Below, one piece after another: positions 889 through 18,300 of a DNA stretch of 41,989 nt. The notes beneath the pieces are model-generated. The model made no database searches. It was not told where the DNA came from and saw only the letters and a list, made by a program, of their open reading frames with translations. The DNA is from a virus. The stretch is from positions 1 to 41,989 of IMG/VR virus record IMGVR_UViG_3300032242_000502; one strand, given 5' to 3'. A program made the position numbers and the translations under genes. Position 1 is the first letter of the stretch. Each line of letters opens with the position of its first letter.

Positions 889-1118
889 GCGCAGATGACA
901 AACAAGTGGGTGGCACACACTATAAAGACATGCCCGTACCGCCGTGGACTGTGATGAAGGCCGTGCTGACGCACGACGAGTTTGTCGGGTTCCTCAAGGG
1001 CAACGTGATTAAGTACAGCATGCGCCAAGGTACGAAGCAGGACAGCGATGACATAGGCAAAGCCTTTCACTACTTGCTGAAACTGGAAGAAGTACTAAAA
1101 GAAGGATTAAAAAAATAG
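885..1118 (+). CDS. DUF3310 family protein
   Basis: This 77-residue protein has the family hallmarks in order: VGGTHYKDMPVPPW near the N-terminus, then FLKGNVIKYSMRQGTKQDS and DDIGKAFHYLLKLEEV. DUF3310 proteins are short, very common in phages and sometimes described as nucleotide-kinase-like, but the biochemical role is not settled. The start at 885 is preferred over an upstream in-frame ATG at 822 because it sits in an ATGA overlap with the previous stop and follows a GGGAGC ribosome binding site. The stop codon lies within the first strand of the hairpin that opens the 1113-1280 intergenic region. Confidence 0.88.
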   Translation: MSADDKQVGGTHYKDMPVPPWTVMKAVLTHDEFVGFLKGNVIKYSMRQGTKQDSDDIGKAFHYLLKLEEVLKEGLKK

Positions 1119-1194
1119 ACGGGGTTCATAGGCCAACGCCTGCAAGCCTAGTAGTTGCGAACAGGTTTTGGTGGTAGTTCGGCCCCGTCTATTT
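1113..1194 (+). promoter_or_regulatory. Structured intergenic element, first hairpin
   Basis: A perfect 12-base inverted repeat (AAATAGACGGGG at 1113-1124 against CCCCGTCTATTT at 1183-1194) encloses 58 bases with further pairing potential, including CCAA/TTGG and TGCAA/TTGCG segments. The left strand overlaps the stop codon of the DUF3310 gene. There is no uridine run directly after it, so it is not a simple terminator. With the second hairpin it fills the 162 bases between two genes in an otherwise overlapping operon. Confidence 0.55.
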
Positions 1195-1230
1195 GGAGAT
1201 TACCGAACTGCCGTTCCGATACAGCGAACC

Positions 1231-1270
1231 GAGGGGGCGCTGAAACTACTTTCCCCCTCACCTATTTTTA
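1231..1270 (+). promoter_or_regulatory. Second hairpin ending in ACCTATTTTT
   Basis: GAGGGGG at 1231-1237 pairs with CCCCCTC at 1253-1259 around a 15-base loop and is followed by ACCTATTTTTA and then the AAGGAG ribosome binding site of the nuclease gene. The same 3' sequence after a C-rich stem occurs at 8132-8147. It could be an attenuator or terminator with a displaced T-run, or an mRNA leader that affects translation of the following gene. Function is not established. Confidence 0.5.
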
Positions 1271-1280
1271 AGGAGTACAG

Positions 1281-1580
1281 ATGGCAGCAACACCAGAAAA
1301 GTTAGTGAAGAACAAAATCAAAGTGATACTGCAAGACGGCGGCGTGTACTACGCCATGCCGATTGGTTCAGGGTACGGCAACGCAGGAGTCCCCGACTTC
1401 TTAGCGTGTGTGAACGGGCGCTTCCTAGCCGTGGAAGCCAAAGCAGGCAAGGGGAAAACAACGATGCTACAAGACGCGCACTTAGAAAAAATCAAAGCTG
1501 CCGGAGGAGTATCAATGATAGTGAACGAATTGAACTTAGACCAACTAAAGGAAACCATCAAATGCATGAAGAAGCAATGA
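1281..1580 (+). CDS. VRR-NUC domain nuclease
   Basis: This 99-residue protein is close to the length of a stand-alone VRR-NUC domain, a PD-(D/E)XK fold found in phage nucleases and Holliday-junction or structure-specific enzymes. The signature is clear: IGSGYGNAGVPDFLACVNGR carries the catalytic Asp (D39), and FLAVEAKAGKGK carries E52 and K54. The C-terminal part (LEKIKAAGGVSMIVNELNLDQL) matches the usual last helix and strand. A strong AAGGAG precedes the ATG. It is the first gene after the structured intergenic element, and probably processes recombination or replication intermediates alongside the polymerase downstream. Confidence 0.88.
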   Translation: MAATPEKLVKNKIKVILQDGGVYYAMPIGSGYGNAGVPDFLACVNGRFLAVEAKAGKGKTTMLQDAHLEKIKAAGGVSMIVNELNLDQLKETIKCMKKQ

Positions 1581-1849
1581 CAGCGTGGGGAAAGCAAGTG
1601 AGTGACAGAGTGGACGGATTGCCGGAAGACCGCCGCATGATGTTAGCCAAGTACGTGGACATACTGTCCCGCTGCATGGCAGCAGAAGACGGGTGCAAAG
1701 CCGTTCTGATTATCGAGACTGAGCACAGTGTGGCGTTGGGCGCAATCAATGCGGATACAGCGGAGGCCATGAACATGGTGGCGTTTGCGCAGGAGCAGAT
1801 GGTCGATGCCATCATGGCCGGTGCGCCTCCACGGGAGAAGATGAATTGA
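1562..1849 (+). CDS. Small early protein, function unknown
   Basis: This gene gives 95 residues starting MHEEAMTAWGKQVSDRVD. I prefer the ATG at 1562 because AAGGA lies nine bases upstream; the alternative at 1577 forms an ATGA overlap with the nuclease stop but has a weak ribosome binding site. The protein is mostly helical, with a hydrophobic middle (CKAVLIIETEHSVALGAINAD) and a Met-rich helix (AEAMNMVAFAQEQMVDAIM). Its stop TGA overlaps the TTG start of the polymerase, so the two are probably translated together. No family recognised. Confidence 0.7.
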   Translation: MHEEAMTAWGKQVSDRVDGLPEDRRMMLAKYVDILSRCMAAEDGCKAVLIIETEHSVALGAINADTAEAMNMVAFAQEQMVDAIMAGAPPREKMN

Positions 1850-3813
1850 GCGCCCCCTACGACCGGATAGTGACAGTTGATTTTGAAACCTATTGGGACA
1901 GCAAAGAGTACACGCTGTCCAAAATGACTACTGAGGAGTACATACGTGACCCACGCTTCACGGCTTTCGGAATGGGCATCCATGAATTTGGAACTGACGA
2001 ACCTACTCGATGGGTTCGAGGAGAAGAGCTTCATAAACTCGTATGGGCATACGACTGGGGACGAACCGCCGTACTTGCACATAACGCCCAATTCGACGTC
2101 TCCATACTCTCTTGGCGGTACGGGATTGAACCCGCTTTCATCTTCGATACGCTGTCAATGGGAAGAGCTTTACGCGGCGTGGAGGTTGGAAATTCGCTTG
2201 CCAAACTTGCAGCCGATTTCTCGCTTCCACCCAAAGGCAAAGCTCTTCACTCCACTGACGGAGTGGTCGTCCTCACGGAAGATATTGAAATCGAACTTGC
2301 GGATTACTGTGCGCATGATGTATACCTGTGCGAAGAAGTTTTCAAGCAGCTCGTTAAAGGCTACCCTACGTCGGAACTACGGCTTATTGACATGACGCTG
2401 AAGATGTACACGAGGCCCATGCTCGTGCTTGACCAGACCATGCTGGCCGAGGAGCTGATTGAAGAACGCACCAACCGCGAAACATTGCTGGCCAAGCTCA
2501 ACGTCGACGAGTCAGCGCTGGCATCCAACCCGCAGTTTGCGCAGTTGCTGGAGTCCCTGCATGTGCCCCCGCCCATGAAGAAGAGCAAGACCACCGGCGA
2601 CCAGACCTACGCGTTGGCAAAGAACGACGCCATGTTCCAAGCCCTGCTCAACGGGGACAACGACGATGTGCGCCTGCTGTGCGAAGCAAGACTGAAGGTG
2701 AAGTCCACGACCGAGCGCACCCGTGCGCAGCGGTTCCTTGACATTGCGCAGCGCGGCACGTTGCCTGTACCCTTGAGCTACTACGGGGCATTGTCGGGGC
2801 GATGGACGGCATCCAAGGGTAGTGCCATCAACATGCAGAACCTGAAACGCGGGTCGTTCTTGCGCAAAGCCATCATGGCCCCCGAGGGGCATCAACTTGT
2901 GGTGGGCGACTTGTCTCAGATTGAGCCGCGTGTGTTGGCGTGGATGTCGGACTACCACGAGATGCTGGACATCTTCCGAGCCGGAGGCGACCCGTATGCT
3001 GCCTTTGGTGCGCAGATGTTTGGCATCCCCGGCATGACTAAGGACAGCCACCCCATCCATCGCCAGTCGGCCAAGAGCGCGTTGTTGGGGGCAGGGTATG
3101 GGTTGGGCTGGGCATCGTTCGCAGCGCAGCTTCTGGTGGGCTTCCTCGGGGCTCCGCCCCTGCGCTACACCAAGGCTGACGCAAGGCAGCTCGGGGTGAC
3201 ACAGCAGTTCGTCCAGCGCTTCGTGGACTGGGAGGACAACCTGACCAAGATGGCAGAGATTCCGCACACTTGCAGCGAAGGCGAGTTGCTTATACACTGT
3301 GTCGTAGCGAAGAAAATCATCGACGTTTACCGAGCCACGGCCCATCCGGTTACCAGCTTTTGGGACATGTGCAGCGGTCTTATCGAGACCTCACTGTACG
3401 GCGGCAAGGAGCACACGCACAAGTGCTTGACGTTCCGCAAGGAGCAAATTGTGCTGCCCAACGGGATGAGCCTGCTCTACCCGAGGTTGCGGCGTAAGAA
3501 GGACGAAGCGGGTCGGCAGCAGTGGGTGTACGGCGAGGACGAGACCAAGCTGTACGCAGGCAAGGTCACGAACAACGTGACGCAGGCGGTGGCTAGAATC
3601 GTGATGACAGATGGTATGCTACGGGTGTCAAAGAGATACCCTATTGTAGGGACGGTGCACGATGAGCTATTGGCTGTCGCGTCCGACGAGGAAGCAAATG
3701 ACGCTAAGACTTGGGTCTTGGCGCAAATGGTCATGGAACCACGGTATCTGCCGGGGATTCCATTAGGCGCTGACGGTGGCGTTCACCGTAGGTACGGGTT
3801 AGCTAAAAACTAG
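1846..3813 (+). CDS. polA: Family A DNA polymerase (Leu762 type) with 3'-5' exonuclease
   Basis: This 655-residue replicative polymerase has an N-terminal DEDD exonuclease (VDFETYWD with D12 and E14; LAHNAQFD; ADYCAHD) and a C-terminal polymerase domain. Motif A is VVGDLSQIEPRVLAW with catalytic D355. Motif B is RQSAKSALLGAGYG with K410. Motif C is VGTVHDELLA with H605, D606, E607. The motif-B residue matching E. coli Pol I Phe762 is Leu (L414). No 5'-3' exonuclease domain is present, as usual for phage enzymes. The start is a TTG in a TTGA overlap with the previous stop, with GGGAG eight bases upstream; the first in-frame ATG would remove exonuclease motif I. All catalytic motifs look intact. 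Confidence 0.95.
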   Translation: MSAPYDRIVTVDFETYWDSKEYTLSKMTTEEYIRDPRFTAFGMGIHEFGTDEPTRWVRGEELHKLVWAYDWGRTAVLAHNAQFDVSILSWRYGIEPAFIFDTLSMGRALRGVEVGNSLAKLAADFSLPPKGKALHSTDGVVVLTEDIEIELADYCAHDVYLCEEVFKQLVKGYPTSELRLIDMTLKMYTRPMLVLDQTMLAEELIEERTNRETLLAKLNVDESALASNPQFAQLLESLHVPPPMKKSKTTGDQTYALAKNDAMFQALLNGDNDDVRLLCEARLKVKSTTERTRAQRFLDIAQRGTLPVPLSYYGALSGRWTASKGSAINMQNLKRGSFLRKAIMAPEGHQLVVGDLSQIEPRVLAWMSDYHEMLDIFRAGGDPYAAFGAQMFGIPGMTKDSHPIHRQSAKSALLGAGYGLGWASFAAQLLVGFLGAPPLRYTKADARQLGVTQQFVQRFVDWEDNLTKMAEIPHTCSEGELLIHCVVAKKIIDVYRATAHPVTSFWDMCSGLIETSLYGGKEHTHKCLTFRKEQIVLPNGMSLLYPRLRRKKDEAGRQQWVYGEDETKLYAGKVTNNVTQAVARIVMTDGMLRVSKRYPIVGTVHDELLAVASDEEANDAKTWVLAQMVMEPRYLPGIPLGADGGVHRRYGLAKN

Positions 3814-3820
3814 GAGAAGC

Positions 3821-4141
3821 ATGAAAACAGACACAAAACTAATACTGCCCCGCCGCATCCGCGTCGGCAACAAACGGTATTCAGTTGAGGTGATTGAAGC
3901 GTTGCTGGACAAGCAGCATGTAGGACGTATTCAGTACGCTGAACAGCGCATTCAACTCGGTCTGCGCAACGGGCAGACAAACCGCAAACTGCCCGCCGCA
4001 GAAATACGTGATTCGTTCTGGCATGAGCTAGTGCATGCAATTCTTCACGACATGGGGCGTCACAGCCTCAACCGTGATGAAGCGTTTGTCGTTGCATTTG
4101 CCAGCCGATTATCTAAAGCAATCGACTCAGCGAGGTTCTAA
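3821..4141 (+). CDS. HExxH putative zinc metallopeptidase-like protein
   Basis: This 106-residue protein carries FWHELVHAILHDMG, an HExxH zinc-binding motif with H68, E69 and H72. A short beta-rich N-terminal part (RRIRVGNKRYSVEVIE, IQYAEQRIQLGL) precedes it, as in compact phage proteins of the SprT/ImmA-like zincin type. The third zinc ligand is not obvious; an acidic residue in the helix NRDEAFVVAFASRL is a candidate. A strong AGGAGA precedes the ATG, and the stop TAA overlaps the next start by one base. Whether it is an active protease or a structural zincin relative cannot be decided from sequence. Confidence 0.78.
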   Translation: MKTDTKLILPRRIRVGNKRYSVEVIEALLDKQHVGRIQYAEQRIQLGLRNGQTNRKLPAAEIRDSFWHELVHAILHDMGRHSLNRDEAFVVAFASRLSKAIDSARF

Positions 4142-4806
4142 TGGTCAACGTCACATGGTCGCACTCAGGCTTGAAAGCCTACGAGCAGTGCCCCCGCCAG
4201 TACTACGAAGTAACAGTGCTCAAGAGTTTTCCTAAAGGCGATACAGTGGCAACGCTGTACGGCAAGGAGCTGCACACCGCTGCGGAGAAATACGTACGGG
4301 ATGGGGAACCGCTGCCCAAGCAGTTTGAGTTTATGCAGGACACGCTTGACGCGTTGCTTGCCAAGCCCGGACGCAAGCTGTGCGAACATGAGATGGCGCT
4401 CACCAAAGACCTGAAGCCCTGCGACTTCAATGACCCTAACCGGTGGGTGCGCGGAATTGCCGACCTCATCATCCTCGACGATGAGAACCTGACAGCAAAG
4501 GTGGTTGACTACAAGTCCGGCAACAACAAGTACCCCGACAGGGAGCAGCTCAAGTTGATGGCCTTGATGATATTTGCCCACTACCCACACATCCGCAAGG
4601 TGAGTGGAGCGCTGCTGTTTGTGGTCAAGAACGACATGGTGCGCCAAGACATGACCATCGACCGGGCCGAGTCCGAGTGGTGGAACTACCGGAAGCGCGT
4701 AGCCCGCATCGAGCAAGCACACGAGACAGGCGTGTGGAACCCCAAGCCAACCCCACTATGCGGTTGGTGTCCTGTAGTGAAGTGTCTACATAACCCCAAG
4801 CATTGA
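4141..4806 (+). CDS. PD-(D/E)XK nuclease, Cas4/RecB-like, probable Fe-S type
   Basis: This 221-residue protein opens with TWSHSGLKAYEQCPRQYYE, the classic N-terminal helix of the PDDEXK_1 (RecB/AddB/Cas4) family. The nuclease core is VRGIADLIIL (D108) and KVVDYKSGN (D123, K125). Four cysteines are placed as in Fe-S members: C17 near the N-terminus and C207, C210, C215 in LCGWCPVVKC near the C-terminus. Known relatives resect DNA ends as 5'-3' exonucleases. In this operon it would supply recombination or end-processing activity, or degrade host DNA. It overlaps the upstream stop by one base. Iron-sulfur binding is inferred from cysteine spacing. Confidence 0.9.
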   Translation: MVNVTWSHSGLKAYEQCPRQYYEVTVLKSFPKGDTVATLYGKELHTAAEKYVRDGEPLPKQFEFMQDTLDALLAKPGRKLCEHEMALTKDLKPCDFNDPNRWVRGIADLIILDDENLTAKVVDYKSGNNKYPDREQLKLMALMIFAHYPHIRKVSGALLFVVKNDMVRQDMTIDRAESEWWNYRKRVARIEQAHETGVWNPKPTPLCGWCPVVKCLHNPKH

Positions 4807-4817
4807 AAGGACGTACC

Positions 4818-5051
4818 GTGGCAACCCGCGACTACAAGAAGGAATACCAGCAAGACCTCAAGACCGGCAAGTCCGGGCCGGGGTCAGACCAACATGAGCG
4901 CCAACGTGCGCGGCGCAAGTATGACAAGGAAGGCATCAACCGCGCTGGCAAGGACATCGACCACATCAAGCCGCTGCGCAAGGGTGGCAAGTCCACACCG
5001 GGCAACCTGCGGTTGCGTGCCAAGTCGGCCAATCAAGGCGACAACAAATAA
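4818..5051 (+). CDS. Small HNH endonuclease-like protein
   Basis: This 77-residue protein contains an HNH/beta-beta-alpha-metal core: KDIDHIKPLRKGGKSTPGNL with D48, H49, the GG turn and N63, followed by SANQGDNK carrying N72. The N-terminal half is very basic (RDYKKEYQQDLKTGK, ERQRARRKYD), suitable for DNA contact. A GTG start at 4818 is chosen because AAAGGA lies six bases before it; an in-frame ATG at 4803 overlaps the upstream gene and lacks a ribosome binding site. Phage HNH proteins of this size can nick DNA or act in packaging; its position here suggests a replication-associated role or a free-standing homing-type element. Confidence 0.82.
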   Translation: MATRDYKKEYQQDLKTGKSGPGSDQHERQRARRKYDKEGINRAGKDIDHIKPLRKGGKSTPGNLRLRAKSANQGDNK

Positions 5052-5066
5052 CTACACGAGAAGCAA

Positions 5067-6626
5067 ATGGAAATCATCGACGATAGAGCACTCCTATTAA
5101 AAACTCGAAACCCGCACAAATACTCAATCATCCCAAAGCACAAGGTCGTTGGCGAAAGCAATGGCACGTATGAGGTACTGGTTCATTGGGGTTTAGAAGA
5201 GACGCAGGTGCTGCGCAATCTTGGCGTTAAGGATGTGCCCTCGCCCATCACACGGCGCTACAACTGGCCCGGCAAGTACAAGCCCATGGCGCACCAGATG
5301 CAGACCGCAGAGTTCCTGACGCTGCACCGCAAGGCGTTCGTGTTCAGCGAACCCGGCACAGGCAAGACGCTAAGCGCTTTGTGGGCCGCAGACTACCTGA
5401 TGAGCATCAAGCATGTTCGCCGCGTGTTGATTCTGTGCCCGCTGTCCATCATGCACAGCGCGTGGTTGGGTGACTTGAGCAACAGCATCATCCACAGGTC
5501 AGCGGTGGTGGCCCACCACACACAGTCGTCGCGGCGCATTGAGATGGTGCAAGAGGACTACGAGTTTGTCATTGCCAACTATGACGGGCTAAACCTGATT
5601 GCAAGCGAAATCGTCAATGACGGGCGCTTTGACTTGGTGATTGTGGACGAGGCCAACGCCTACAAGACTCCGACAACCAACCGCTGGAAATCACTCAAAG
5701 CCGTTCTCAAGCCGGAGACTAGGCTGTGGATGATGACCGGTACGCCTGCTTCGCAGTCACCGTTGGATGCGTATGGCCTTGCCAAGCTGGTCAACCCCAG
5801 CGGTGTGCCCAACTTCTACACGGCTTGGCGCGACAAGGTAATGCTCAAGGCCACCATGTTCAAGTGGGTTCCCAAGCCCGAGGCCAAGGCGTTGGTGCTG
5901 GAGGCGCTACAGCCCGCCATACGCTTCACGAAAGAGCAGTGCCTAGACCTACCTCCGGTGATGACGATGACGCGCACTGTGGCCCTGACACCGCAGCAAA
6001 TCAAATACTACAACGCACTCAAAGACCGGCTCATGGTGGAGGCAGCAGGCGAGACCATCACGGCAGTTAACGCGGCAGCGGGGGTCAGCAAGCTGCTGCA
6101 AATAAGTTGCGGCGCTGTGTACACAGATGACAAAGACGTTGTGGAGTTCGATGCTACACCGCGCCTGAACGAGCTGAACGCCATACTGGGGGAGACCGAC
6201 CGCAAGGTGCTGGTGTTTGCCATGTTCCGCAGCAGCATCGACACCATCCACACGCACTTAACCAAGCACACCATCAGCGCCGAGTGCATTCACGGTGGGG
6301 TTTCCCCCACCAAACGGGCGGACATCATCCGCCGCTTTCAACACGAACCCAACCCACGCGTCCTTGTTATGCAGCCCCAAGCAACTGCCCACGGGATTAC
6401 TTTGACTGCTGCCGACACGGTGGTGTTCTTCGGGCCGTTGATGAGCGTTGAGCAATATATTCAGTGCATTGCGCGGGCTGACCGCAAGGGTCAGAATGCG
6501 GAGAAGGTGTCGGTCTACCACATCGAGAGCAGCCCGATTGAGAAGAAGATGTTCAGTGCGTTGGTCTCAAAGGTAGATGACAACTTCCTTCTGACCGACA
6601 TGTTCAAAACCGCAATAAGTAGCTAA
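5067..6626 (+). CDS. SNF2-type superfamily 2 helicase/ATPase
   Basis: This 519-residue enzyme has both RecA-like lobes. Lobe 1: YKPMAHQMQTAEFL (Q motif region), FVFSEPGTGKTLSALWA (Walker A, K100), LILCPLSIMHSAW (motif Ia), FDLVIVDEANAYK (Walker B, D194-E195, DEAN instead of DEAH), and MMTGTPASQSP (motif III). Lobe 2: VLVFAMFRSSIDTI (motif IV), TAHGITLTAADTVVFFGP (motif V) and QCIARADRKGQ (motif VI with R470 and R473). This is the SNF2-like, RNA-polymerase-translocase-like arrangement found in phage replication modules that lack a DnaB helicase. It lies between nuclease genes and an SSB-like gene, pointing to DNA remodelling in replication or recombination. Start follows GAGAAG. Confidence 0.92.
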   Translation: MEIIDDRALLLKTRNPHKYSIIPKHKVVGESNGTYEVLVHWGLEETQVLRNLGVKDVPSPITRRYNWPGKYKPMAHQMQTAEFLTLHRKAFVFSEPGTGKTLSALWAADYLMSIKHVRRVLILCPLSIMHSAWLGDLSNSIIHRSAVVAHHTQSSRRIEMVQEDYEFVIANYDGLNLIASEIVNDGRFDLVIVDEANAYKTPTTNRWKSLKAVLKPETRLWMMTGTPASQSPLDAYGLAKLVNPSGVPNFYTAWRDKVMLKATMFKWVPKPEAKALVLEALQPAIRFTKEQCLDLPPVMTMTRTVALTPQQIKYYNALKDRLMVEAAGETITAVNAAAGVSKLLQISCGAVYTDDKDVVEFDATPRLNELNAILGETDRKVLVFAMFRSSIDTIHTHLTKHTISAECIHGGVSPTKRADIIRRFQHEPNPRVLVMQPQATAHGITLTAADTVVFFGPLMSVEQYIQCIARADRKGQNAEKVSVYHIESSPIEKKMFSALVSKVDDNFLLTDMFKTAISS

Positions 6627-6634
6627 GAAAGGAG

Positions 6635-6662
6635 TTACAGACCCAAAAAAATCGTGTATACT
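6635..6662 (+). promoter_or_regulatory. Possible sigma70-like promoter
   Basis: In the 70-base gap after the helicase, TATACT at 6657-6662 lies 16 bases after TTACAG at 6635-6640, with an A-rich spacer. The -10 is one base off consensus; the -35 is poor. It would drive the 133-aa and SSB-like genes, which may need higher expression than the enzymes upstream. Direct evidence is only the sequence match. Confidence 0.4.
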
Positions 6663-6696
6663 TGTCAAACACTAGACACAACAACAGGAGAAATAA

Positions 6697-7098
6697 GTGA
6701 GTGAAGAAGCTATCCCCATCGACAAGCTGACCAAGATTTACCGCAAAATCAAAGCGCAAATCGACCAGCTAACACAAGAGTACGACACGCGAGTGGAAGT
6801 GCTCAAGGCATCGCAAGACGAGATTAAGTTTGCGATTAAAGACCAGATGAAAGCCCTAGGCGTTTCGTCTGTGAAAACCGAGTTTGGCACTGTCTCAATG
6901 GCCAACAAGACGCGGTACTCCACCCAAGACTGGGACTCGTTCAAGACATTTATTGTTGAGCATGATGTCGTGGACTTGTTGGAGAAGCGGATTGCCCAGA
7001 CGAACATGGCTAAATTTTTAGAAGACAACCCCGGTGTTGTTCCCCCCGGTCTCAATGCTTTCAGCGACTTTGAGATTCGTATTACCAAACCACGTTAA
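6697..7098 (+). CDS. Conserved phage protein of the replication module, function unknown
   Basis: This 133-residue protein starts at a GTG (AGGAG six bases upstream). It has an N-terminal helical hairpin or coiled coil (residues about 8-50, IDKLTKIYRKIKAQIDQLTQEY onward, heptad-like) and a beta-containing C-terminal domain with SVKTEFGTVSMANKTRYSTQDW and the conserved end FLEDNPGVVPPGLN. I recognise this pattern from many phages, where it is annotated only as hypothetical; the coiled coil plus small domain superficially resembles Gam-like nuclease inhibitors, but that is weak. It sits just upstream of the SSB-like gene, nine bases apart, and probably shares its promoter. Confidence 0.8.
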   Translation: MSEEAIPIDKLTKIYRKIKAQIDQLTQEYDTRVEVLKASQDEIKFAIKDQMKALGVSSVKTEFGTVSMANKTRYSTQDWDSFKTFIVEHDVVDLLEKRIAQTNMAKFLEDNPGVVPPGLNAFSDFEIRITKPR

Positions 7099-7107
7099 GA
7101 GAGAACC

Positions 7108-8070
7108 ATGAGCAACCTTGCTACATTCAATCCTTCCAAAGTCCCGGCGTTTGCACGTAACAACGTGCTGTCGGATAACGCCCGCGCCTTGGCGGGTAGT
7201 GCCACTGTTGGCGGCGGCAAACGCGTCTCCATTCGTGGTGGTGTGTTCCGTCTGCTGAGCGAAGGCAAAGAAGTCGCCAGCATTGAAGAGCGTCACTTGG
7301 ACGTCATCATCGTCAAAGCCGCACCGAAGGTGAGCCGCCAATACTATGCAGCCGCCTACAACCCCGATGCTGCTGCCTCTGCACCTGACTGCACTTCGGC
7401 TGATGGTGAGACTCCTGACTTCAACGCCAAAAACCCGCAGTCGGCAAGCTGCGCTAACTGCCCACAGAACGTGGCTGGTTCGGGTAACGGCAGCAGCCGT
7501 GCTTGCAAGTACCAGCACAAGCTGGCCGTGGTGTTGGAGAGCGACCCCGAGGGAGATGTTATGCAGCTTATCCTGCCCGCAGGCTCTATCTTCGGTAAAG
7601 CAGACGGCGACAAGCGCCCATTGCAAGCGTATGCCCGTTACTTGGCTTCGCAAAACCCGCCCATCAACCCCGAGCAGATTGTGACCCGCATGAAGTTCGA
7701 CACGAGCGAAGAGTCCCCCACGCTGGTGTTCCAGCCCGCCCGTTGGTTGACCGATGATGAGTACGCGATTTCGTTGAGCCAAGGCAAGACCCCTGATGCT
7801 GAACGTGCGATTGGAGGTCTTGCTGATAACATCGCGGCCCCCATCACGCTGGCCGGTACACCCCCAACCAGAGCCAAGACTGTAGCGGTTGAGGAAGAAG
7901 CTGAAGCCCCTGTACCCAAGGCTACCCGCGCTAAAGCCAAGCCCAAGGCTGAAGTGGTGGAGGAGGATGAGTCCGAGCCGGAAGTGCGCAAGGCAGCGCC
8001 CGCGCAGTCTGCTGTGCCGGTCAAATCTAGCAAGCTGGCCAGCATCGTGTCTGATTGGGACGACGAGTAA
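7108..8070 (+). CDS. Candidate ssDNA-binding protein with Cys4 zinc site and acidic tail
   Basis: This 320-residue protein has three parts. Residues 1-90 are a conserved N-terminal region (KRVSIRGGVFRLLSEGKEV). Residues 90-225 hold four cysteines (C95, C115, C118, C133; SASCANCPQN and RACKYQHKL) and a beta-rich core (KLAVVLESDPEGDVMQLILP), like a zinc-containing OB-type domain. Residues 245-320 are a low-complexity Pro/Ala/Glu/Lys linker ending in IVSDWDDE. A disordered linker with an acidic, aromatic-containing tip is the hallmark of phage SSBs such as T7 gp2.5 and T4 gp32, where the tip recruits polymerase and helicase. The assignment rests on architecture and neighbours. It could instead be a conserved replication accessory protein. 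Confidence 0.65.
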   Translation: MSNLATFNPSKVPAFARNNVLSDNARALAGSATVGGGKRVSIRGGVFRLLSEGKEVASIEERHLDVIIVKAAPKVSRQYYAAAYNPDAAASAPDCTSADGETPDFNAKNPQSASCANCPQNVAGSGNGSSRACKYQHKLAVVLESDPEGDVMQLILPAGSIFGKADGDKRPLQAYARYLASQNPPINPEQIVTRMKFDTSEESPTLVFQPARWLTDDEYAISLSQGKTPDAERAIGGLADNIAAPITLAGTPPTRAKTVAVEEEAEAPVPKATRAKAKPKAEVVEEDESEPEVRKAAPAQSAVPVKSSKLASIVSDWDDE

Positions 8071-8076
8071 TTTTTT

Positions 8077-8150
8077 GGGGGGTTAGTTTCGGCATATTGC
8101 TGTGATAAACGGAGCCGCTTGTATAGGCTAACCCCCACCTATTTTTTAAC
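8077..8150 (+). promoter_or_regulatory. Structured leader ending in ACCTATTTTT, second copy
   Basis: GGGGGTTAG at 8078-8086 pairs with CTAACCCCC at 8128-8136 around 41 bases, followed directly by ACCTATTTTTTAA. ATAGG at 8123-8127 can instead pair with CCTAT at 8138-8142, which would loop out part of the C-rich strand, so two exclusive folds are possible. The 3' part matches the element at 1253-1270. It lies between the SSB-like gene and the lipoprotein gene; its 3' end could serve as a terminator with a displaced T-run or as a switchable leader. Confidence 0.5.
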
Positions 8151-8163
8151 CACTGGAGAAATA

Positions 8164-8571
8164 ATGAAACGCACTCTTTTAATCATCGCCGCCGCTTGCG
8201 CACTCGTTGCTTGTGGCAAGAACGAAGTCAGCTTCGCATCACTGGAAGAAGCCAAGGGCACGGCGCGTGAGAACGCACTGTGGAACGCTCAACGCTATCG
8301 GCAGGAGAACATCCTGTACAAGGGCTGGGACATCATTGGTCGCGGCGATTCTTCGCAAGAAAATTCCTGCCCGCAAGGCGATGGCTGGGCCACGATGGAG
8401 TTTGTGAACCCTGAGAAAACTGCCATTGTCAAAGTCAAGTGCTCCACCGTATCGGCCAACACCGGATGCTTGGAAGACGCTGACTTCAAGACCAAGCCTT
8501 TTGCCGCCGAAGATGGGCACTGCCAGCCAACCAACAAGGTTCCGTACCCACTGCCGAAGATTGCCAAATGA
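8164..8571 (+). CDS. Predicted outer-membrane lipoprotein
   Basis: This 135-residue protein has a signal peptide (MKRTLLIIAAACALVACGK) with a lipobox LVAC at residues 14-17. Cys17 would be lipidated; Gly at the next position suggests sorting to the outer membrane. The mature part has further cysteines (for example NSCPQGDGW, VKCSTV, TGCLED, GHCQPT) that could form disulfides in the periplasm. No enzyme motif is seen. It starts after CTGGAG within its own leader element and overlaps the next gene by ATGA. Early phage lipoproteins (for example T5 Llp) often block the phage's own receptor, so superinfection exclusion is a reasonable hypothesis, not shown by the sequence. An upstream in-frame start at 8119 would spoil the signal peptide. 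Confidence 0.82.
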   Translation: MKRTLLIIAAACALVACGKNEVSFASLEEAKGTARENALWNAQRYRQENILYKGWDIIGRGDSSQENSCPQGDGWATMEFVNPEKTAIVKVKCSTVSANTGCLEDADFKTKPFAAEDGHCQPTNKVPYPLPKIAK

Positions 8572-8669
8572 TGATGCTCGACATACTCATTGGCTTGGGC
8601 ATGCTGGTGTTTGGCGCAGTGTGCTGGACAGCAGGTGTTACCTACGGTCGCCTGACTACCCGTAAATGA
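8568..8669 (+). CDS. 33-aa single-TM membrane microprotein
   Basis: The ATG at 8568 overlaps the lipoprotein stop (ATGA) and opens a 33-codon frame: MMMLDILIGLGMLVFGAVCW then TAGVTYGRLTTRK. It is one transmembrane helix followed by a short basic tail, which by the positive-inside rule would be cytoplasmic. The tight coupling to the lipoprotein suggests a joint membrane function (receptor blocking or exclusion), but a holin-like or purely accessory role is possible. Confidence 0.55.
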   Translation: MMMLDILIGLGMLVFGAVCWTAGVTYGRLTTRK

Positions 8670-8760
8670 TTGAAGGGGGAAAGCGGATGCTGGCGTTGCG
8701 GTCAAGTTGCCGCCTGATTTCAAGGGTCAACCCAGTGCAGCGAGTACCCCACCTATAACT
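8670..8760 (+). other. 91-base spacer with possible 30-codon frame and C-rich motif
   Basis: A 30-codon frame (ATG 8666, TAA 8756-8758) overlaps the previous stop by ATGA but encodes an unremarkable basic peptide and is probably not a gene. The stretch has a GCGG/CCGC hairpin near 8698-8713 and ends in ACCCCACCTATAACT just before the next ATG, a weaker relative of the C-rich ACCTAT ends at 1253-1270 and 8132-8147. The following gene has no clear Shine-Dalgarno, so this leader may matter for its translation. Confidence 0.3.
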
Positions 8761-9039
8761 ATGGCTTATTCACCAAAAATTAAGGAGCTTGTGGCTTCGT
8801 CCCCTAAGACGCTGGGCAACCAGCTTGGGCGGTGGGCAATCCATTTGAACTTCCCTGTTGCGAAGATTGCGTATGCGCTGGGCGTGACGCGTCAGACAGT
8901 CTACAACTGGTTCGAGGGTCGGGATATTTTTCCTGCCTATCAGAATCGCGTCGAACTACTTTTATCAATTATGCGGTCGTCGAAAACGGCAGACCAAGCG
9001 TGGAGAGAAATATGCAAAGAATACAACTTGAAGCCCTGA
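8761..9039 (+). CDS. HTH DNA-binding regulator
   Basis: This 92-residue protein carries a helix-turn-helix in its middle: FPVAKIAYALGVTRQTVYNW, with the turn at ALGVT and recognition helix RQTVYNWFEG. The following FPAYQNRVELLLSIM resembles the Cro/CI-type domain ending, so it is probably a small dimeric XRE-like regulator. The start at 8761 is taken because upstream in-frame codons (from 8707) run through the C-rich leader, although no good ribosome binding site is visible. It overlaps the next gene by 28 bases. A likely role is switching early expression, perhaps acting on the intergenic elements nearby. Confidence 0.75.
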   Translation: MAYSPKIKELVASSPKTLGNQLGRWAIHLNFPVAKIAYALGVTRQTVYNWFEGRDIFPAYQNRVELLLSIMRSSKTADQAWREICKEYNLKP

Positions 9040-12203: not shown

Positions 12204-12372
12204 GCGGGGGCAGGGGTTCTTTATCCCCTGCTTGGACGTTGTTGCTGTCAAGGAAGCGGGTCTACAAGCAGCCCTGCGGCATCGTTACTTCGGAGCTAAG
12301 GCCGAGGTTGGTATCCGCAAAGGGCTGCTTGGGGTCTGGTTCTATCGACCAGCTAGGACTCAATCTGTTTGA
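12163..12372 (+). CDS. Last early gene, small conserved protein
   Basis: This 69-residue protein (MKKLLYNYPWQRVERGQGFF) starts inside the primase gene in another frame. It has a compact pattern: RVERGQGFFIPCLD, then AALRHRYFGAKAEVGIRKGLLGVWFYR, which I recognise as a recurring type of small phage protein with no assigned function. Its last 20 bases overlap the end of the oppositely oriented giant late gene, so the two transcription units meet tail to tail. No terminator is seen for either unit here. Confidence 0.75.
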   Translation: MKKLLYNYPWQRVERGQGFFIPCLDVVAVKEAGLQAALRHRYFGAKAEVGIRKGLLGVWFYRPARTQSV

Positions 12373-15300
12373 TGCGCTGCTCAAACTTTGAGGCTAAGTC
12401 CTGCTTGCGCTTTTCAATGTCATCAATACGCTTGCGCTTCTCGTCTCCGGGCATGTTAGCCCCACGAATCCGCTCTTCCATTGTGCGGAAGTTGCCCATC
12501 AGCTTCTGATACTGCAAAGCCATAGGCGCAACAGCTAGTTCAGTGCGGTGGTTTTGAATGAAGTCTTTGGCATCTGCGGCCCTCCCTTCGCGCCGCATAC
12601 CATCCAAATCGCGTTTGGCTTGCATGGCTTCATCAGCCAACTTGTACATGACATCCGCATCAGCGCCGCCGTACTTCTTCTGGAAAGCGCTGCCAATGAA
12701 AGACATCTCCGATAAGTTTTTGGGCACAGGCTCCACTTCACCGTCTTTGAACAGCCCATTGGTTGCAGCCAGCACGGCAAGGGGGATTTTGCCAAAGTAC
12801 CCGTCCACAATGCGTTCAATTTGGATGGGCGACAAGACAGGCGCTGCCTTGCTTATGGCCTTGGCCAACTCGGTGGTATTGGCGTTGTAGCGTTCTTCCA
12901 CGCTCTTGCCTTGCAGCCGCTTGGACTCCAGCTCGTTGCCGGTGTTGAAGTCCTTGTTTGTCCAAACCTCTGCAATTGGTTTGACGATTTGTGGCACACC
13001 CATAGAGGACGAACCGGGTATAGCTCCAATAAACATATCCCGAAGCGCTCGGGCCTGCTGTGCCCCATCTGTCTGCCCAACCATAGCGTCTGCTGCGGCT
13101 GCGCCCATTGAGAAGAACCAACCAAACTCGTACGGGATTGGCAGTTTCAACGGCTCATCAACTCCGGGGATATGCACAATGAAATTGCTATACCGGTCTT
13201 TAGGCTTGGCATTTTTGTAGTAGTCGTCGTCCTGCATTGCCATTGCATACGCGATGCCGCTTGCGGCCAGCAGCATGGCGTTGTTGTAAAACTTCTGTTT
13301 AATCTTGAGTTGTTCGTTGAACGGCATCTGCCCGGTCGCTGCTTTGTACAGGACGTTCAAGCCTTGAATCTGCGAGTTGAAAAACGGAATCATCCGGCTT
13401 ACATACTGCACAGTAGGTGATAGCCCGCGCTTGTGAAAGTTCATCGACTCCATCGTGGCAAAATCCGCCTCGACTTCAGACAGGCCCTTCTTGATGGCGT
13501 TGTCGTACACCAGCGCCCGTGTGGCAGCATCCGCATTCATTGCGTATTTATCCGCCATGCGGAAGAACTTTTCAAAAGCGTTGAAGTCTTTGCCGCTTGC
13601 CAGTTGCGTTGCAAACTTGGCAACATCGTCCGTATCGCCGGTAAAGATGCCGCTCTGTATCAAGCCTTTCTTAATCAGCTCTGCCGCAGTTGTACTCTGC
13701 CCAGTGCTCATCTTCAAAAATTCTTTGTTGGCCTTATAGATTGAGGTCAACATGCTGTAGTCCAACCCAGCAGTGGCTGTTGCCGCCATAGGGTCGCGGA
13801 ACAACTGGCGCATTATGTACATGGGGGTGCGCGTAACGCCTGCCCGCAACAAGTCCCCAGCAACACCGCCCCACTTCAAAAACGCAGGCAAAGTCAACGG
13901 CGCACCTTCAAGGCTGCGAACCAACATCTCTGCGGGAACGCCTTCAGCTACCGTACCGTTGGTTTGCACGCGCACATGGCGCTCACCAGTGTCTTTGGAG
14001 TCGTTGGGGTCAGGTTCTTGGTTGAACCGGATGATGCTGGCGTCAGCCGCTGCGCCGTAACCCTTGCGAATTTGCATAGTGTCCGTGGCTTTACCGAGTT
14101 CCTGTAAGGCATACGCTACATTGCGTGTTGCCAAGTTGGTCATGGCCTTGTTTATCAACAGCGTTGTGTTGCGCGGAATGGACTCGTTGATTGGCAGTAT
14201 CTTGGCTTCACCACCTTTAAGCGCCGCCAGTTGCGGTTGATGGCGAATGTCGCCAATCGTCATGGTTTTCTCACCGCCAAACACCAGCTCGGCTATGCCG
14301 TTTTCTCGGATGCGGTAGTACGGAACGTAGTCGCCCTCGCGTAAGAATTCCCGCGCATCGGCTTTGGTAATAGAACCCGTCTCTGCCAAGAACTCAATCT
14401 GGCCTTTGTTGTAAGCGTTGTATCGTTCGCGTACTTTCTCTAATGCACCTTTCAGTTGGGGGTCAGCGTTGGCCGCAGCCATTGCAGCGTCCACCCGGTC
14501 TTGGGTAATACCCAAAGCGCCAAGGTCTAGCTTGGCCAGCCCTTTGTTAGTCGCACGCTGGGCAATCATGTACATCGTGGCCATTTCCATCTTGGCCGCT
14601 TCATTGCCGTACTTGTCAGGGATACCGCCTACAGCATCGAACACTTCCCGAGCGCTGTCTTTACCGGTGGTACGAATACCCTTGAGCCCTTTGGCATCTT
14701 CGTACATCTCAAGCGGGCCATCGCTCAACGCAGCCAACACCAACGGCATTTTCTGGTCAGCTTTGGTGTAGCTGTACATGGCCTGTTGGAACAAGCGCGA
14801 ATCACCAAATGATTTGGCTCCGGCTTCCATAACCTTGCGCAATGCCGCTCGCATATCGGTCGTTTGCATCTCAAACTCAAGCCCGTGGTTGGAACCGCCA
14901 AGCATGCTCTGCCACCAGCCCTTCTTCCGCGCCACGGTGTCTTGCGCCAGTTGAGACAACGCATTGTCTTCGCCGTACTTAGCTGCGCGAGAAAACAGCG
15001 GTCCGCTGGCACGCCCAATTGGCGTCAAGTTCTCGCCCAATATCTGTGGGCCTTGGTCTTTGTCCAAGAAGTCCACGTAGTTAAAGTCTGCGGCTTCACC
15101 GCGCAACCCCGCCTTACGCGTAGGCGCATCGAAGAATTTGTTACCGACTATGCCGTTAGCGGCTAAAAGCTCAGACGCAGTTTTCTGCGACCCCAACGCA
15201 ATCTTAAACGCGCTGTACAAAAACTTGCCGTCGGGGTTAGCGGTACGGCCCACTTGCCGGTTGAACTCCGCTTTTTGTTCCGGGGTCATTGCTTTAAAAG

Positions 15301-18300
15301 CAGCTTTTAACCCCTCGGACACTTTTTCCGATTGCCCACTGTACGGAGCGTCCAGTTGCAAGTACGCGTCTTCTTTTGCGCCGTGCACAACCCGCAGCAA
15401 ATTACCTTTATTGACGGGGAAAGGTATAGGCGGTATGTTACCTGTGTAATTAAAATCCGCCACGTTAATTTTTTTAGCGGCATCAAGCAGTTCTTTAACT
15501 TTAGCCCTTTCTTTAACGCCCGCAGCCCCTTTACTAAACCCCACGTTGTCTTTAATAGCTAAGCGGGTTTCATTAACATATATAAACGACCGCAATGCCA
15601 AATTCCACCAGTCTTTAAGCTCTGCTTCCGTAGAAAAATACGGTGTTGGTTTAGATTCATTTTCAAAAATCTGCATAACAACAGTAGCTTCAGGGTTTTG
15701 TTTTTTATGTTCCCCTAATAATTCGTCATAATTTTTACCTTTATATATGGGGTCATCCCATGCTGATGTATACCACTTTTTAATTTCGGGCAAATTCCAC
15801 CAAGCGGTAATTGCTTGAGATGGCGACATTGCCGTCATGTCGCGGTAGTACTTAGCCACTCCCGGACTTTGTGCGCTATACGTACCGTACCCGTACGCTT
15901 GATTGCCTTCGCCCGTGCCCATGTAAGCGTGGTCAAACTGTTCAAACGTGGCGGCTGTGCCGTGCCACGTCCCCTTCAATTCCAGCTGGGCGCAGCCGTA
16001 CGCAAAGTTAACCAAGTCCCCGGTGGTCAGATTGGTCGGATTGAACCCGAGTGTTTTGAGCGCGTTCTTAAACGCGTCAACGAGCATTTTCAACCAGTTG
16101 TGAATAGCTGAGCGTTTGGTAACGCCTGCCGGGGATACACCTGCCTTGACTGCTTCTTCCACAGCGTAAGCCAGTATCTCGTCGTCCATATTTGCGGCGG
16201 AAGTTTCCGCAGCTTCAGCGCGGGCAATGGCCGCTTTGCCGACCTTGGACTCCAAAGAACCGTCGTTGCGGTTAGCCCAACTACGCACCGTACCCACAAG
16301 CGCTTTGAACTGCCCCGCGTTGAAGAAGTTGCGGAACCCAATATGTACACCGACCTCATGCAGCAAAACACCCAGAGCCTCGCCCTTACCAATGTTGTCC
16401 GCAATCAAGAACGCCCGACCATCCAACACAAAACCTTTTGCGTCAGCAGGAATATCAATGTCACTTCCAACAGCAGCCAACGCATCTTCTACTGTCTGGT
16501 ACACACCTAGTACGCGGGAAACCTGCGCTTCGCGTGGCCGACCTGTAACCGGTTCGCCCACTGCTTTTGCAAGCTCGGCTTCAACTTCTTTAACACTCAG
16601 CGCTTTGGTCGGTGTTCCGCGTGAGAGCATCGCACCCTTGTCCAGCTCAGCTTGCGTAGCTGCTTGCAGTTTGGCTTGGGCTTTCTTTTCCGCAGGGGTC
16701 AGCAGCGCTTGCTTGGCAAGCTCCAACGCGTTTGCTTTGGCGCGTTCGTTTGTTTCAGCCCGGTCTACTACGGCTTGCGCCTCTTCTTTGGCCTTGCCTT
16801 CTTTGGCGGCATTCAGTTTTTCCGACGCATCAAGGGCTTCTTTTGTGGCTTGCTTCAACGCAGCTTCTGCTGAGATGACATTGTTTTCCAACACCTGCCG
16901 CGCTTCCTGTGCTGGGGTTAATTTTTGTGGTTTGCGGGCTTGGCTAAGCCGTTGTTGCCCGCTTGTACCGCCAGCGCCTTCAATACTTTCAGCCGTACCC
17001 GTACGCATTTTGGATGGTGCAGCCGTTTGTGTTCTGGCTACGGGGCCTGCTGTTGGTGCAGTCTTTACAAGCCCTGCAAGATTTTTGTAATAGTTGTACT
17101 GCGTTTTCAGTGTTTGAAGCTGCTTGTTAATTTGCGCAACGCTCTTGCCTTGTTTTTGCAAGGCTTGGCCTTCTGCTCTCAAAACATCAAATTGGGCTTT
17201 AAGCTGCCCCATTTTTTCAATAGCTTCTTGCTTTTCTTGCGCACGCTGCATCTGGTCAAACAAGGCGGCTGCGGATTGTGCCCTGCTTGCCGCTGCACGG
17301 CTTTCAGGCGTGGTTTTCTCAATGGGCTCAACCACAGGGCCGGGGCGCACAGACTGCGCTTCATACCCTGCAATCTCACCTTCCAGTTTTTTAATTGCGT
17401 TGTCTACGCGCTTTGTCGGCTTGTTCTGCTTGGCCAACTCTTCGCGTTTTGTTTTGGTTTCCTCCAACCGTTGCATAGCACCGCGCATAGCTAACGCCAG
17501 TGCTTTTTGTTTGCCTACTGGTTCAGACACGCGCAGTCCGGGCAACGTCTCGCCTTTTGCCGTTTGAATGGTTCCGGTTTGCCGCGCCGTAACCGCAGCC
17601 TGCATTTGGTTCTTCTGCTTGTTTACAGCTTCCGCGTTGCGTTTGGCCGCTATCTCGGCCGCGCCCACAACAGCGCGTTGTGCCTTGGCCTCCGCCTGTT
17701 TCTGCTTGATGTCGGGGTTGCTCTTCTGAAACTCCTGTAAGTCTTTAAGTTGCCCGTCCAGCAACTCCAATTTCTTACGCTCAACCAACACCAGCCCGTC
17801 CAGCATGGCTTGCGCAGAGAACTCAGCGCCGTTGTAGGCTTCGTTCAACTTCCCGTTCAGTTCTGACAGCCCTTGCTGCGCCGCAGCAATTTCTGCTTGC
17901 AACGCGTTTGCTTTTTCCAGTTCTTTTGCCAGCGCCTTCTGCTCACCGGCACGGCCCTCCACCGCTTCCGCAGCGGCAACCATCTGGCCCATGCGCGTTT
18001 GCACAGCAGCCAACTGTTTCTCGGCGGTATTTAATGCGTCCTGTGCATTTTTAATATCTGGGGCATACAGCGCTGCCCGCGCATCCATCGACTCCTTCTT
18101 GGCTTCTGCAAAGGCTTCCTTCACTGCGATGGCGTAGTTCTTTTGCGCCTCGGGGATGCGCTTGTTCAACCGTTCGGTTGCGGCATCAATGATTTTTTGA
18201 TTGGCAATAGTCAACTTCTTGGCCACACCCAACGCTGCCCGCCCAGCCTTGACCGCAGGGGACTTTTCAAAATTGGTTGCCGTGGCACGGATGTGCCCAA

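Follow-up and report, generated by a model that had tools for sequence, protein, structure and literature searches.

In bacteriophage T4, the single-stranded DNA-binding protein (SSB) and the DNA polymerase repress their own translation via leader RNA structures, one of which is a pseudoknot (PMC3014915); that of gene 32 has been described as possibly the sole viral pseudoknot serving translational autoregulation (PMC3014915). Here we describe a structured RNA, termed element 1, at positions 1113-1262 (+ strand) of the 41,989-nt IMG/VR virus record IMGVR_UViG_3300032242_000502, which was analyzed at its full length and is referred to below as the window. The element lies in the gap 1113-1280 between an upstream DUF3310 gene (Pfam) and the downstream genes for a nuclease (NUC, 1281-1580) and a DNA polymerase (1846-3813). 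On comparative sequence grounds, it almost certainly represents an RNA family uncatalogued so far, of ~150 nt, whose fold comprises five helices, P1 to P5, and a kissing helix, K; across scores of uncultured phages its shape is kept and its sequence is not.

A per-sequence helix search returned one architecture, with the observed strand order P1a-P2-P3a-P1b-P3b-P4a-P5a-P4b-K'-P5b. P1 is formed by AAATAGACGGGGTT (1113-1126), which holds the TAG stop codon (1116-1118) of the DUF3310 gene, and GGCCCCGTCTATTT (1181-1194), while P2 (1132-1142 and 1162-1172) is the hairpin bearing the kissing loop. P3 pairs GGTAGTTC (1173-1180, inside P1) with GAACTGCC (1205-1212) and constitutes an H-type pseudoknot together with P1. 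A second H-type pseudoknot is made by P4, with strands CAGCG (1222-1226) and CGCTG (1238-1242, inside the P5 hairpin), and P5, with strands GAGGGGG (1231-1237) and CCCCCTC (1253-1259), the latter helix being the stem already noticed in an earlier reading of this sequence (hereafter, the original prediction). K is a 7-bp loop-loop pairing between AGTAGTT in the P2 loop (1150-1156) and its partner K', AACTACT in the P5 loop (1244-1250). All five helices are supported by the helix search and by covariation (helix 1 for P1, helix 2 for P2, helices 5 and 6 for P4, and helix 7 for P5), P3 additionally by a partner-swap test, and K and K' by compensated versions in relatives. The limits of the whole element, the upstream stop codon and the conserved ACC after P5, agree with its match to a covariance model and with the covariation described below.

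Relatives were IMG/VR loci fetched via the SSB-like protein (7108-8070) and the polymerase. The gap upstream of NUC in the fetched relatives contains a loop GCCTAGTAG[A/T]TG followed ~100 nt on by A[A/T]CTACT, and the variants of the two co-vary. Scans with this spaced pair produced 76, 12, and 35 stretches, including chance matches; a further pattern scan with CCTAGTAGTTG gained few true copies, many of its matches being chance ones in coding sequence. From the motif- and protein-led searches combined, ~107 true element-1 loci were kept (111 minus L262, L265, L267, and L275), most of them collected via the K motif, which inflates the apparent invariance of K. As a control harvest, the polymerase protein alone was used as the query, and the resulting 72 loci were scanned with the covariance model R1, built from P1, P2, and P5, yielding 13 further full-length copies and one cut copy. 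The same model finds a single match in the window (1102-1265, 138 bits). The R1 family is defined by P1-P5 and K with compensatory changes, all of which the window element shares, and every clear whole-record match has one copy per record.

In the alignment of 54 sequences (A1), 82.0% of cells are paired, compared with 68.1 +/- 0.6% after shuffling and 42-48% with slid partners. Two-sided changes occur at 35 of the 43 pairs, with compensatory changes in all six helices, and the count of two-sided cells (375 versus 152 +/- 11 in shuffled alignments) was reached in 0 of 500 shuffles; these shuffles ignore the relatedness of the sequences, and the weight rests on the slid controls and on the number of distinct helices. 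The pair counts for P1 and P3 are lower bounds in divergent members, where MAFFT places these helices wrongly. It is for these two helices that the partner-swap test is strongest, native strands outdoing nearly all swaps with divergent sequences; for P3, 51 of 54 sequences outscore 95% of partner swaps. P4 occurs as CAGCG/CGCUG, CCGCG/CGCGG, CCACG/CGUGG, ACACG/CGUGU, ACUUG/CAAGU, GCUUG/CAAGC, CCUUG/CAAGG, ACGUG/CACGU, GCAUG/CAUGC, and UGCACA/UGUGCA. Compensated K/K' pairs number at least six or seven, several of them from loci found by the polymerase and not by the motif. They include AGUAGAU/AUCUACU and AGUAGUU/AACUACU, and, from the control harvest and earlier R1 matches, UGUAGAU/AUCUACA, GGUAGAU/AUCUACC, GAUAGAU/AUCUAUC, AAUAGAU/AUCUAUU, and GCAGAU/AUCUGC; the L332 group and L058 carry UGUAGAU/AUCUACU, with a single end mismatch. 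Cas12a repeats have a UCUAC/GUAGA stem, and a relationship of the K stem to it was considered and dismissed as coincidence, since K varies freely with compensation.

Within the helices, G-U pairs outnumber A-C mismatches by 206 to 84, and therefore the + strand is the folded RNA strand. This excess speaks against an element acting at the DNA level, such as a replication origin or a hairpin promoter, as does the fact that the element always has the sense orientation and lies between genes of the same direction; the pseudoknots and the kissing loop likewise favor RNA, so that a DNA element, for which the location in a replication module might be cited, is extremely improbable. By folding energy, the segment 1105-1200 is more stable than its shuffles (z -3.65; -35.6 kcal/mol), while the hairpin at 1231-1259 is unremarkable (z -0.07) and stands out in covariation only.

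The family has no counterpart among the catalogued RNAs that were searched. Rfam 15, including its riboswitch, ribozyme, GOLLD, ROOL, and leader models, gave no match at or above the gathering threshold in the window and 17 relatives, and at a relaxed E-value only chance matches of at most 17 bits appeared. In INPHARED, blastn found no match to the window element, only short low-scoring matches to the copy in L145 (E about 3-9), and, for L241, matches that lie on the terminator hairpin downstream of the element. Two exact pattern scans of GTDB genomes returned no matches, although divergent copies would escape such scans, and nothing on the motif or the family was found among open-licence papers.

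Small ribozymes typically have interlocking pseudoknots and a kissing loop, and the phage intergenic setting would also suit a previously undescribed ribozyme that cleaves itself and thereby processes the replication mRNA. Moreover, the invariant unpaired bases cluster at the K junction: CC on the 5' side of K, G on its 3' side, and A on the 5' side of K'. However, these bases are few, their invariance is due in part to sampling by motif, an invariant dinucleotide that might be the cleavage site was not identified, and models of known ribozymes do not match, which together make this explanation distinctly unlikely. The hepatitis delta virus (HDV) ribozyme has the strand order P1a-P2a-P3-P1b-(P1.1)-P4-P2b with a catalytic C; an HDV-like ribozyme was rejected, as the helix order of element 1 differs and no Rfam HDV model matches.

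The original prediction had raised the possibility of one repeated leader or attenuator RNA, with a stem followed by ACCTATTTTT and an upstream ATAGG that can pair with CCTAT, in the gaps at 1113-1280 and 8077-8163, and a weaker version at the end of the 8670-8760 spacer. The strings themselves are where they were reported: ACCTATTTTT at 1260-1269 and 8137-8146, its only exact matches in the window, ATAGG at 1128-1132 and 8123-8127, the C-rich stem strands, and the weaker ACCCCACCTAT before 8761. The broader claim of an unnamed structured phage RNA in an early-operon intergenic gap was borne out for 1113-1262, as covariation in related genomes, the test set for it beforehand, was found there. 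The idea of a single repeated element was not, because the gaps hold three different RNAs and R1 finds nothing at 8077-8163 or 8670-8760. Neither does ACCTATTTTT define a family: among the fetched relatives it occurs in only two loci other than the window, only the ACC immediately 3' of the stem is widely shared, and the window's clade alone has the T-run. By folding energy, 1105-1200 and 8068-8163 (z -2.42) do better than their shuffles, and 8665-8761 does not (z 0.02).

An attenuator, with P5 and a T-run as intrinsic terminator and ATAGG/CCTAT as antiterminator, is now scarcely credible, even though in the window ACCTATTTTTA comes right after the P5 stem. Most relatives lack a U-tract, and the RNA leads straight into a ribosome-binding site; members outside the window's clade read, for instance, ACC-AAUUC-AAAGGA after P5, and a terminator scan found nothing in either the 1113 or the 8077 gap. 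The ATAGG/CCTAT pairing is not conserved: L004 and L014 read AAAAGG at the 8077 site, with AAAGG in place of ATAGG and with CCTAT kept, while at the 1113 site L007 combines ATAGG with CCCAT and distant members such as L145 have neither. A ligand-sensing riboswitch, with an aptamer before a ribosome-binding site or a terminator, would account for the same core being followed by the former in most phages and the latter in a few, as in riboswitch classes. It is nonetheless very unlikely, given that there is no conserved expression platform with alternative pairing, that helices make up almost the entire fold and leave few conserved bases unpaired, and that the neighboring genes show no metabolic theme.

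In its genomic setting, element 1 forms a discrete module, present once, within the replication operon; it takes up the room between two genes, beginning at the stop codon of the first and ending ~21 nt short of the start codon of the second. In 49 of 60 cases, the stop codon of the upstream gene lies 26-40 nt before the loop, a position within or at P1. In the window, 21 nt separate the end of P5 from the start codon, and 21 nt is also the median among members with differing downstream genes, 80% of which fall within 19-25 nt (n=55). The Shine-Dalgarno sequence AAGGAG of the window's nuclease gene (1270-1275) stands outside the RNA. NUC, the usual downstream gene, begins as a rule ~30 nt after K'; its product resembles a Holliday-junction resolvase by context and by a Pfam Hjc match of 19.5 bits, below the cut-off of 21.1. 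The second constant neighbor is the polymerase, assigned by Pfam to family A with a 3'-5' exonuclease, which is encoded on the same strand at most 6 kb downstream in 93 loci, sometimes with another gene between.

The exact span from stop codon to next ribosome-binding site would also fit a barrier or insulator built into the structure of the polycistronic mRNA, one that blocks exonucleases or ribosome carry-over and separates the stability or translation of its segments with no ligand or protein involved. The very stable fold of 1105-1200 is in line with this, and in some inspected relatives without element 1 the neighboring genes abut or overlap (five gaps of 0 nt). A plain hairpin would suffice for such a role, as in the SSB-HTH gap of relatives described below, whereas six conserved helices and the CC, G, and A around K suggest a specific fold; we regard a mere barrier as rather unlikely.

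We tentatively propose, at somewhat short of even chances and by analogy with T4 gp32 and gp43, that element 1 is a cis-acting post-transcriptional intercistronic operator of nuclease and DNA polymerase output. The fixed start-codon spacing and the polymerase linkage underlie the resemblance to the leader-based autorepression of T4. Acting in cis, the element would set, after transcription, the amount of nuclease and polymerase made. The likeliest form would be autogenous repression, with either the polymerase or NUC, which homology suggests to be a junction-binding nuclease, attaching to the knotted RNA so that ribosomes load less readily just 3' of it. As the stop codon of the preceding gene is part of P1, ribosomes that end translation there would melt this helix, possibly coupling the effect to upstream translation.

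Several observations weigh against such an operator. NUC is not always the downstream gene: L168, L177, L193, and L195 have an HNH-like gene there, and other contexts occur in L170, L187, L203, and L230 and in L178 and L184. In L236, L237, L241, L243, L245, L183, and L202, an intrinsic terminator follows directly 3' of the RNA, which therefore is no simple leader in these seven loci. Most polymerase relatives are without element 1 (13 full-length matches in the 72 loci of the control harvest), and the polymerase tree requires a minimum of 7 (starred branches) to 12 gains or losses of it; thus, the genes work without it. Finally, the window's Shine-Dalgarno sequence is not part of the fold, and no conserved alternative pairing able to mask it was noticed, although no systematic search was made.

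The terminator-followed copies and the varied neighbors keep a general barrier and a trans-acting RNA in play. According to the latter explanation, element 1 would be a stable phage non-coding RNA, excised or terminated, that serves in host take-over, as a decoy, or in counter-defence, the operon being a mere carrier. The fold kept while neighbor genes vary, a terminator placed as for a 3'-end-derived RNA, repeated gain and loss, and a single compact, highly knotted copy per genome are all in agreement with it. Most copies, however, lead directly to a ribosome-binding site with no terminator and with constrained 21-nt spacing, and the linkage to NUC and the polymerase is strong, so that we consider a trans-acting RNA unlikely, though a genuine contender. 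More broadly, it is possible, if doubtful, that element 1 represents a novel type of functional phage RNA that has an activity of its own and travels as a mobile module next to the DNA polymerase, instead of a leader whose sole role is to tune the adjacent genes; the activities open to it, a ribozyme, a binder of a ligand or host factor, or a trans-acting RNA, share that same doubtful standing when taken together.

The other two RNAs lie in the region between the SSB gene and a gene for a helix-turn-helix (HTH) regulator. Element 2 (8078-8136, + strand) is a different hairpin RNA with the stem 8078-8088/8126-8136 and no R1 match; its relatives in L004 and L014 stand directly before the HTH gene, with a variable stem. 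Element 3 (8675-8750, + strand; GGGGGAAAGCGGATGCTG...CAGTGCAGCGAGTACCCC), also without an R1 match, represents a second conserved family directly before the HTH gene, with the form GGGGGAAAGCGGAUGCUG...CAG-GCAGCGAGUACCCCC, a sarcin-ricin-like GAA/AGUA internal loop, and a freely variable top. The fetched loci contain 30 distinct copies of it, and although 8665-8761 has the energy of its shuffles, the sequence is strongly conserved in relatives. An element-3-like hairpin near 942-991 on the minus strand of L241, a quite different phage and context, hints that this family may be widespread. In L033, L039, L041, and L147, an insert bearing a tRNA T-arm-like GTGAGTTCGAATCTCAC is found in element 3 or at its site; ARAGORN found no tRNA in the first three of these loci.

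Overall, regardless of its length (26 to 233 nt) and of the sequence family it holds, the SSB-HTH gap is enclosed by one stem in 54 of 61 distinct relatives, compared with 47% of shuffles, and this stem leaves a median of 6 nt per side. None of the 54 enclosed gaps has a Shine-Dalgarno sequence between the stem and the HTH start, and hairpin-bridged reinitiation is possible in this gap. In L054, L092, L107, and L115, a Shine-Dalgarno sequence precedes the hairpin, as in the split ribosome-binding sites of T4. Another conserved element, GCCCAGCCGGAGGTGGCGCTAATAACACCGGCAGCGGGGGCTG...GTGACCCCGCACC, follows SSB in L018-L025, L043-L045, L057, L060, L062, L066, and L068, sometimes in tandem after element 3, and has no Rfam match in L018 or L066. 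Two further unrelated structured elements, GCTGGGCCGCAGGCAGCGG... and GGGGAAGTAGTGG...CACTGCTTC..., occupy the gap in L037, L042, and L089 and in L048, L052, and L053. In the window, a lipoprotein gene and a 33-aa open reading frame flanked by two different RNA elements separate SSB from HTH (8071-8760), and at this site close relatives have a single element and lack any gene; the segment looks like an inserted gene-plus-RNA cassette. Elsewhere in the window, a single open reading frame of 2978 aa covers 12353-21289 on the opposite (-) strand.

Element 1 is thus a well-supported RNA family missing from Rfam, with a fold unusually intricate for its length. In uncultured phages of a widespread lineage, it occupies a fixed position within the replication module, and it offers a concrete, testable case of a structured RNA in the control of phage DNA replication. 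The unrelated folds that replace one another in the SSB-HTH gap suggest that intergenic phage RNA is a neglected reservoir.

Among known RNAs, GOLLD and ROOL (PMC12286853) resemble element 1 as ornate, lake- or phage-associated RNAs of obscure role with loop-loop pairing; they are, however, hundreds of nucleotides long and homo-oligomeric, whereas element 1 has ~150 nt, lies between genes, and is not matched by their Rfam models. The small self-cleaving ribozymes (HDV, twister, pistol, and hatchet) share with it compact interlocked pseudoknots and a phage or intergenic setting, but the helix order of HDV is different, and no Rfam model of these matches element 1. In the split ribosome-binding sites of T4 genes 38 and 25 (PMC3014915), an intervening stem brings the upstream signal effectively nearer to the start codon, a parallel confined to elements 2 and 3, since element 1 is followed by its own Shine-Dalgarno sequence. 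The gp32 and gp43 operators of T4 and RB69 (PMC3014915) are comparable in that a structured RNA stands upstream of the start codon of a phage replication gene, as found here with 21 nt from P5 to the ATG and NUC and the polymerase downstream. They consist of a small pseudoknot or an 18-nt hairpin with unstructured sequence over the ribosome-binding site, whereas element 1 combines two pseudoknots with a kissing helix, does not cover the Shine-Dalgarno sequence, and in some phages has a terminator after it. The gp32 operator (PMC3014915) contains a pseudoknot, as does element 1, and feedback by a replication protein is the mode of action that would also apply to element 1.

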